A stretch of DNA of 64,000 nucleotides from NCBI GenBank assembly GCA_018222765.1, contig JAAEZT010000006.1, positions 57,921 through 121,920 on the forward strand, written 5' to 3'. A program made the position numbers and the translations under genes. Numbering within the stretch: the stretch's first letter is position 1; each line of letters opens with the position of its first letter. The DNA comes from a bacterium. Lineage in GTDB: Bacteria > Verrucomicrobiota > Verrucomicrobiia > Verrucomicrobiales > Akkermansiaceae. The notes beneath the pieces were generated by a model. That model was not told the origin of the DNA. It saw only the letters and a list, made by a program, of their open reading frames with translations, and did not search any database. This document shows, in pieces, positions 45,929-48,434 of the stretch.

Positions 45929-46025
45929 TGGCGCTACCCATGCGATACCGGCGCGAAAACCTCAAGCGCGATTGCACATCGGATTAATTCATTCGAAAAA
46001 ATCGACCCCGATTCTTCAATTAGCC

Positions 46026-46054
46026 TTGGCAGCTGCATGCGCTGTGCCTAGTTT
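46026..46054 (+). promoter_or_regulatory. Candidate sigma-70 promoter of kdsB-pyrG-nagZ
   Basis: TTGGCA (46026-46031, 5 of 6 to the -35 consensus), 17-base spacer, TAGTTT (46049-46054, 3 of 6 to -10). Transcription would begin near 46061, leaving a leader of about 20 bases that contains the Shine-Dalgarno but excludes the upstream in-frame CTG codons. Confidence 0.4.
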
Positions 46055-46067
46055 TCATAAACCGTCG

Positions 46068-46074
46068 AAGGAGG
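46068..46074 (+). promoter_or_regulatory. Strong Shine-Dalgarno (AAGGAGG) that fixes the non-AUG start of kdsB
   Basis: Seven bases matching the anti-SD perfectly, 6 bases before ATA 46081. It decides the kdsB start because no ATG, GTG or TTG exists in frame between the upstream stop (46021-46023) and well inside the gene. Confidence 0.8.
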
Positions 46075-46080
46075 AACTTT

Positions 46081-46833
46081 ATAGTTACGAAAAAAACGCG
46101 AATCGTTGGCATCATTCCGGCCCGTTGGGCCTCCTCCCGCTTCCCCGGAAAGCCCCTGCATCCGCTTCTGGGAAAACCCCTCCTACAGCATGTTTTCGAA
46201 CGTGCCTCCCAGTGCGCCGAACTCGATGAACTCGTCATCGCCACCGACGACAAACGCATTTCAGATCTTTGCGAAAGCATCGGGGCCCGTGCCGTTCACA
46301 CTCGCGACGATCATCCCTCGGGGACCGACCGCATCACAGAAGCGGCTGCAGCCTGCGAAGAAGTAACCCATGTTATTAACATTCAGGGCGACGAACCCCT
46401 CCTCGAAGCGGAATTAGTGGACACCCTCGCACGCGCTCTCCGCGACGATGACGACCTTCCCATGATAACTGCCGCCAGCCCGGTAGGGGATCCCGAGCTA
46501 ATCGCCGATCCCAACATCGTCAAAGTCGTAATCAGCTCCCAATCCGACGCCCTCTATTTTTCGCGCTCACCGATCCCCTTCCGTCGTGGCAAGATTCCTG
46601 ATCTCCCCACCTATCGCCACCTCGGCATCTATGGCTACCGCGTCGATTTTTTGAATCGATTCATCTCGCTTCCACCCTCGCCCTTGGAGCGAGCCGAGGG
46701 CCTCGAACAACTTCGCGCGCTTGAAGACGGAGCACGCATCAAAGTCCATCTCACCGAGCACGAAGCCATCGGCCTCGACTCTCCTGATCAAATTCCACTC
46801 ATCGAATCTCTCCTCACTGCTGCCCAAAAATGA
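46081..46833 (+). CDS. kdsB: 3-deoxy-manno-octulosonate cytidylyltransferase (CMP-KDO synthetase), probable AUA start
   Basis: Activates KDO with CTP for lipopolysaccharide core synthesis. 250 residues (E. coli about 248): nucleotide-binding [58 protein letters not shown] and HLGIYGYR are all family motifs. The first codon is unusual: the reading frame has no ATG, GTG or TTG before the conserved IVGIIPAR block, whose native proteins need only a few residues before it. ATA at 46081, 6 bases after AAGGAGG, gives (M)[14 protein letters not shown]. The first conventional in-frame starts, GTG 46417 and ATG 46462, would delete the active site. The stop overlaps pyrG by 4 bases. Confidence 0.93.
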
Positions 46834-48434
46834 AATACATCTTCGTCACCGGAGGAGTCGTCTCCTCTCTTGGAAAAGGACTCGCCGCTGCCTCAATCGG
46901 AACTCTGCTTGAACACCGGGGTCTGAAAGTCCTCCTCCAGAAATTCGATCCTTATCTCAATGTCGATCCCGGCACGATGTCGCCGTACCAGCACGGTGAG
47001 GTCTACGTCCTCGACGACGGAGCGGAAACCGATCTCGACCTGGGACACTACGAGCGATTTGCCAACTGCACCCTTTCCCAGACCAACAGCCTGAGTTCGG
47101 GGCAGGTCTTCGAAAACGTCATCAAAAATGAGCGTAAAGGAAAGTATCTTGGCGCCACGGTCCAGTTCATCCCGCACGTCACCGATGAAATCAAAGACCG
47201 CCTTAAGCAGGCCACCGCTGAAAATCCCGACACCGATGTCATCATTACCGAAATTGGCGGCACTGTCGGGGACATCGAAGGGCACCTTTTCCTCGAAGCC
47301 CTCCGTCAATTCGCCCAGGAAGTTGGCCGAGCCAACGTCTGCTTCATCCACGTGACTCTTCTTCCTCTCGTTCGCGCAGCCGGAGAAATTAAAACCAAGC
47401 CGACCCAGCAGTCGGTAGCCAAACTCCGGGAAATCGGAATTCAACCCGACATCATCATTTGCCGCACCGAGCACGAACTCGGCGAAGACAACCGCGCTAA
47501 AATCGCGATGTTCTGCAATGTCCCCGTGCCCAATGTCGTCGCATTCCGGGATGTTGAACACACCATCTACGAATGCCCTCTCGACCTTCGAAAAGACAAG
47601 ATCGACCGCCTTGTTTCAGATGTTCTTGGCGTTGAATCAAACACTCCCGACCTCAGCAAGTGGGAGTCTTTTGTCGAACGCCTGATTCACCCTGAGCACA
47701 GTGTCCGCATCGCGGTTGTCGGGAAATACATCGAGCTTCAGGACGCTTATAAATCAATCTACGAATCGCTCACGATCTCGGGCGCCGAACACAATACCAA
47801 AGTCGAAGTCGTCAAGATCGATGCCGAGCATCTCGAGAAAGCATCCGCTGAAGAAATCATCGGAAAAGTCGATGGCATCCTCATCCCGGGAGGATTTGGC
47901 GATCGCGGTATCGAGGGTAAAATCATTGCCGCGCAGTACGCCCGCGAAAACAAGATACCCTACTTCGGAATCTGCCTCGGCATGCAAATCGCCACCATCG
48001 AATACGCCCGAAACGTCTGCGGCCTCGCCGAAGCCAACTCGACCGAATTCAACAAAGAAGCCGCTCATCCCGTCATCAGTCTGCAGGAAGAACAACAAGG
48101 CATCACCGACATGGGCGCCTCCATGCGTCTCGGCTCCTGTGAATCCATCGTCTTCCCTGACACCAAATCCTTCGAAATTTACGACAAAGCCGACACGATT
48201 CACGAGCGTCATCGCCATCGTTACGAATTCAATCCCGCCTACCGTGAGCAATTTGAGAAAGCCGGACTCGTCATCGCTTCCGTATCCCAGAAAGAAGGCC
48301 TCGTCGAAATCATCGAGGTCCCCGACCATCCATTTTTCGTCGCGGCGCAATTTCACCCCGAGTTCAAATCGAAGCCCAACTCTCCTCATCCCATCTTCTC
48401 TAGCTTCGTCAAGGCCGCCCTTGAGAACTCATGA
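46830..48434 (+). CDS. pyrG: CTP synthase
   Basis: Aminates UTP to CTP with glutamine. 534 residues: N-terminal synthetase domain ([58 protein letters not shown]) and C-terminal class I amidotransferase with nucleophile Cys in FGICLGMQ and His in AQFHPEFKS. Fully canonical. Four-base ATGA overlaps couple it to kdsB upstream, which consumes CTP, and nagZ downstream. Confidence 0.98.

Follow-up and report, generated by a model that had tools for sequence, protein, structure and literature searches.

AUH start codons (AUA, AUU or AUC) are known from infC, which encodes IF3 and begins with AUU, AUC or AUA under autogenous IF3 control. The pcnB gene of Escherichia coli starts with AUU. In Staphylococcus aureus, AUA or AUU codons combined with an extended Shine-Dalgarno (SD) sequence in ccpN, citZ and cvfC1 yield approximately 10% of the output of AUG in poor medium, and repression by IF3 has been proposed for these starts (PMC13009471). 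A GTC start codon sets a low product level for sigR in Streptomyces, and IF3 represses noncanonical starts both in E. coli and in Streptomyces (PMC5472188).

The kdsB gene described here, in a 64,000-nucleotide stretch of DNA from an Akkermansiaceae bacterium (the window), shares with infC an AUH start that is conserved in relatives and has no canonical alternative upstream. The two genes differ, however, in that kdsB would have no part in direct feedback and has a strong SD, whereas infC of the same genus shows none. Like pcnB, kdsB is a non-infC gene with an AUH-type start, but gene and lineage differ. With S. aureus ccpN (AUA) and cvfC1 (AUU) it has in common a conserved AUH codon with a strong SD, an arrangement shown to lower output in S. 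aureus, although those are other genes in another phylum. Unlike them, kdsB displays all three of AUA, AUU and AUC among close relatives, as well as a switch back to a canonical start devoid of SD. The sigR start is also noncanonical, but it is GTC rather than AUH, and the IF3 repression shown for sigR is one that we infer for kdsB. The AUH-start kind is already known from infC, ccpN and cvfC1, and comparison of kdsB sequences adds unusually clear evolutionary evidence to it. We found no earlier report in the literature of an AUH start for kdsB or for this phylum.

The kdsB start site and its leader

The kdsB gene has a role in lipopolysaccharide building. Its product scored 222 bits against TIGR00466 (curated cut-off, 155.2) and 293 bits against NF003952, and it matched Pfam PF02348; the score above the cut-off and the presence of the conserved N-terminal block identify it as KdsB (CMP-KDO synthetase). 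The features of the locus are given in Table 1.

Table 1. Features of the kdsB-pyrG locus, with positions in the window
Feature	Position	Strand	Remarks
In-frame stop TAG upstream of kdsB	46021..46023	+	Opens the kdsB frame
-35 element TTGGCA (TTGTGA in most of the genus)	46026..46031	+	Putative, from conservation; genus consensus CTTGtgac
-10 element TAGTTT, 17 nt past the -35 element	46049..46054	+	Putative, from conservation; genus consensus CTAgctT
Conserved leader block AAACCG	46059..46064	+	Every column at least 80% conserved in 20 AUH genomes
Shine-Dalgarno AAGGAGG	46068..46074	+	Complementary to 16S 3' end (..CACCTCCTTT.. in five genus members)
kdsB start codon ATA	46081..46083	+	ATA/ATT/ATC in 20/22 genus members, TTG in 2
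kdsB, 3-deoxy-manno-octulosonate cytidylyltransferase, 250 aa	46081..46833	+	TIGR00466, NF003952, Pfam PF02348
pyrG, CTP synthase	46830..48434	+	Named from sequence alone; ATGA overlap with kdsB, no visible SD

According to the original prediction, translation of kdsB starts at ATA 46081, preceded by a perfect SD, in a frame devoid of ATG, GTG and TTG between the stop at 46021 and the conserved block. Coordinates and frame proved correct: no such codon occurs in frame between that stop and the catalytic block, and the first canonical one is GTG 46417, 112 codons downstream and within the enzyme. The AAGGAGG motif was likewise confirmed, six bases (AACTTT) ahead of the ATA, which is followed by GTT ACG AAA AAA ACG CGA ATC GTT GGC ATC ATT CCG. 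The 3' end of 16S rRNA carries a normal anti-SD in five members of the genus, the assembly from which the window derives being itself without a 16S gene. A CAU initiator tRNA is present.

The promoter proposed here for kdsB, not picked up by a simple consensus scan, was read from the alignment, which revealed a genus-wide arrangement, CTTGTGAC / 17 nt / CTAGCTT, then AAACCG. The predicted transcript would start near 46060, with a leader of approximately 20 nt before the ATH codon. Two CTG codons, at 46033 and 46042, had been noted as lying before or within the promoter. Both are in the -35/-10 spacer of this conserved promoter and are therefore upstream of the likely transcript start. No Rfam element was detected in the kdsB leader, and single-sequence folds yielded no common hairpin.

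Conservation of the start codon and its association with a strong SD

We searched same-genus genomes with the KdsB protein and could read the 5' end of kdsB in 22 of them. The codon at the start position was ATA in five, ATT in nine and ATC in six, and ATG was never found there. The two remaining members (L009 and L015) have a TTG start and have lost the SD. In the 20 AUH members, the start codon is located nine or ten codons ahead of the IIPAR sequence, and AGGAGG, as AAGGAGG in 17 of them, stands 5 to 7 nt upstream; with a length of 6 to 8 nt, these are strong or extended SDs of the S. aureus type. Downstream of the conserved block, codon positions 1 and 2 are 95 to 96% conserved and position 3 is 68% conserved. 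The comparison with relatives, which might have revealed a conserved ATG, thus returned none, and the preservation of AUH in 20 genomes of the genus supports the AUA start. We consider initiation of kdsB at AUA in this genome well supported, the start position being defined by comparison.

Of 127 kdsB loci outside the genus, drawn from its family and order and from other phyla, all had a canonical start 3 to 16 codons before the block. In the rest of the family the gene mostly has a GTG or TTG start that lacks an SD. All 20 AUH kdsB genes have a strong SD at proper spacing, as against none of 49 canonical ones (2 from the genus and 47 from the order), one of which carries AGGAGG but at a spacing of 14. 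The strong SD therefore accompanies AUH, not canonical starts. By itself the pattern AAGGAGG-N5-7-ATH is not discriminating, with 144 matches genome-wide versus 95 in a reversed control.

The kdsB stop and the start of pyrG overlap as ATGA (46830-46833 in the window) in 22 of 22 loci of the genus, and pyrG has no visible SD. A literature search on a kdsB-pyrG operon in Chlamydia returned nothing.

Other AUH starts in the genus

The infC gene of the genus (L159 to L183), which served as a positive control, begins with ATA or ATC followed by GCY AAR. Nearly all members have an upstream stop with no canonical codon in between, and there is no strong SD. On sequence grounds, this start matches the classical case of discrimination by IF3. 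An ATG approximately 13 codons into the gene would be a false start call.

We also asked how much coding score each gene loses if only a canonical start is allowed, using a sample of 1.165 Mb (27% of the genome) with 737 complete genes. The loss reached at least 6 units in three of them, kdsB (19.9, the greatest among the 737 genes), rSAM_link_UDG (15.8) and a DEDD exonuclease (6.2). As this test overlooks short N-terminal gaps and missed infC, four AUH genes are a minimum, and the two further genes in a sample of 27% of the genome indicate that AUH starts may be more common in the genus.

The DEDD 3'-5' exonuclease (L330, G000:C46:39808-40410, minus strand, and L331 to L353) has an apparent ATC start, replaced by ATT in some members, in most of the genus. 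ATC or ATT is kept at one place, and the opened frame is devoid of canonical codons in 15 of 24 members. In L346 there is ATG at the very codon where others have ATC or ATT, and outside the genus the starts are canonical. The rSAM_link_UDG gene (TIGR03916; L304, G000:C14:9733-10983, minus strand, and L305 to L328) has an apparent ATT or ATA start in ten members, and the others have ATG at the homologous codon (GTG in L328). No strong SD was found at the AUH starts of these two genes, and AUH and SD are therefore not a fixed pair in the genus.

Alternative explanations and a model for control of kdsB-pyrG

We think it likely that a conserved, weak AUH start together with a strong SD keeps expression of kdsB-pyrG low, probably in an IF3-sensitive manner. 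The least improbable alternative, which we nonetheless regard as unlikely, is that AUH is indeed the kdsB start but merely a tolerated weak codon for which the SD compensates, with no regulation by IF3 or otherwise. The occurrence of at least three other AUH genes in the genus (infC, the DEDD exonuclease and, in a subclade, rSAM_link_UDG) would fit tolerance, as would the joint change of start codon and SD, which is expected under compensation for constant output. However, AUG is a single mutation away, and on the tree the third base underwent at least seven changes, all of them among A, T and C and none to G. As G makes up only 12% of four-fold sites in the kdsB genes of the genus, its absence is suggestive but weak when taken alone. 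An SD of 6 to 8 nt has moreover been kept where such SDs are rare; among 223 genes in the first 381 kb of this genome, just 3 have a 7-nt SD. Finally, when outgroups were included in a protein tree, both TTG members fell within the AUH clade, beside ATC and ATA members. The canonical codon to which their lineage returned is TTG, and the SD was lost, as though a low yield were favored.

That the ATA is an internal isoleucine codon, with translation beginning upstream at a CTG or in another frame, is very improbable. ATA, ATT and ATC are exactly the isoleucine codons, so conservation of ATH would fit, and this genome does have in-frame CTGs. Nevertheless, the SD is immediately preceded by an in-frame stop in L004, L007, L018 and L021, and L006 and L008 have one three codons upstream of the SD, which makes an upstream in-frame start impossible in these genomes. 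L014 is the only AUH member with any canonical codon, an in-frame TTG directly ahead of the SD. Conservation is lacking for the CTGs, which sit within the promoter. In the alignment the SD spacing changes by single bases but the stretch from ATH to the block in multiples of three, the pattern predicted for the edge of a coding region. An upstream CTG start or a frame-shifted start was thus rejected on account of the stops, the promoter position and the lack of conservation.

It is just as improbable that altered initiation machinery in the genus, such as its initiator tRNA, reads AUH as an ordinary start. Several genes have AUH starts, and in the anticodon stem of the initiator tRNA, A29:U41 replaces the first of three G-C pairs. 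Against this, two further genera of the family (G034 and G039), whose kdsB starts with GTG (L029 and L127), have exactly this tRNA, and the coding-score test gave just three such genes in 27% of the genome. A genus-specific initiator tRNA was rejected because genera with canonical kdsB starts have the same one. The A29:U41 pair is not confined to this genus, being present in other genera of the family too (L298 and L361 to L390). Lastly, although the assembly containing the window is a draft in 87 contigs, a sequencing or assembly error turning ATG into ATA is refuted by 19 other genomes, two close relatives with the same ATA and 17 more with ATA, ATT or ATC.

The AUH start with its strong SD appears to be a valve that evolved to hold kdsB output low rather than a sequencing error. 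In the model that we favor, the strong, well-placed SD would hold the 30S subunit at the AUH codon, with only the first two bases of which the ordinary initiator tRNA (anticodon CAU) would pair properly. Such a weak start would keep KdsB low. The output of approximately 10% in S. aureus and the IF3 repression in E. coli and Streptomyces make kdsB most likely a low-output, IF3-sensitive gene; the reduced yield is deduced from these systems, and IF3-linked control is plausible by the same analogy. IF3 would destabilize AUH initiation complexes and infC of the genus itself starts with AUA or AUC, so that kdsB output should rise as free IF3 falls. By coupling through the ATGA overlap with the SD-less pyrG, the AUH start of kdsB probably throttles CTP synthase as well.

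Gene finders overlook starts other than ATG, GTG and TTG, and apart from infC few conserved examples have been described; standard annotation rules would mis-call kdsB throughout this genus. The kdsB data show an exchange between an AUH codon with a strong SD and a canonical start without SD, and they suggest that one genus uses AUH starts in several genes. A more tentative proposal, which we consider rather doubtful, is that infC, kdsB-pyrG, the DEDD exonuclease, rSAM_link_UDG in a subclade and probably more genes form an IF3-controlled translational regulon of converted AUH starts. If this is true, the regulon would make the activation of envelope sugars and the supply of CTP depend on the ratio of free IF3 to 30S subunits.
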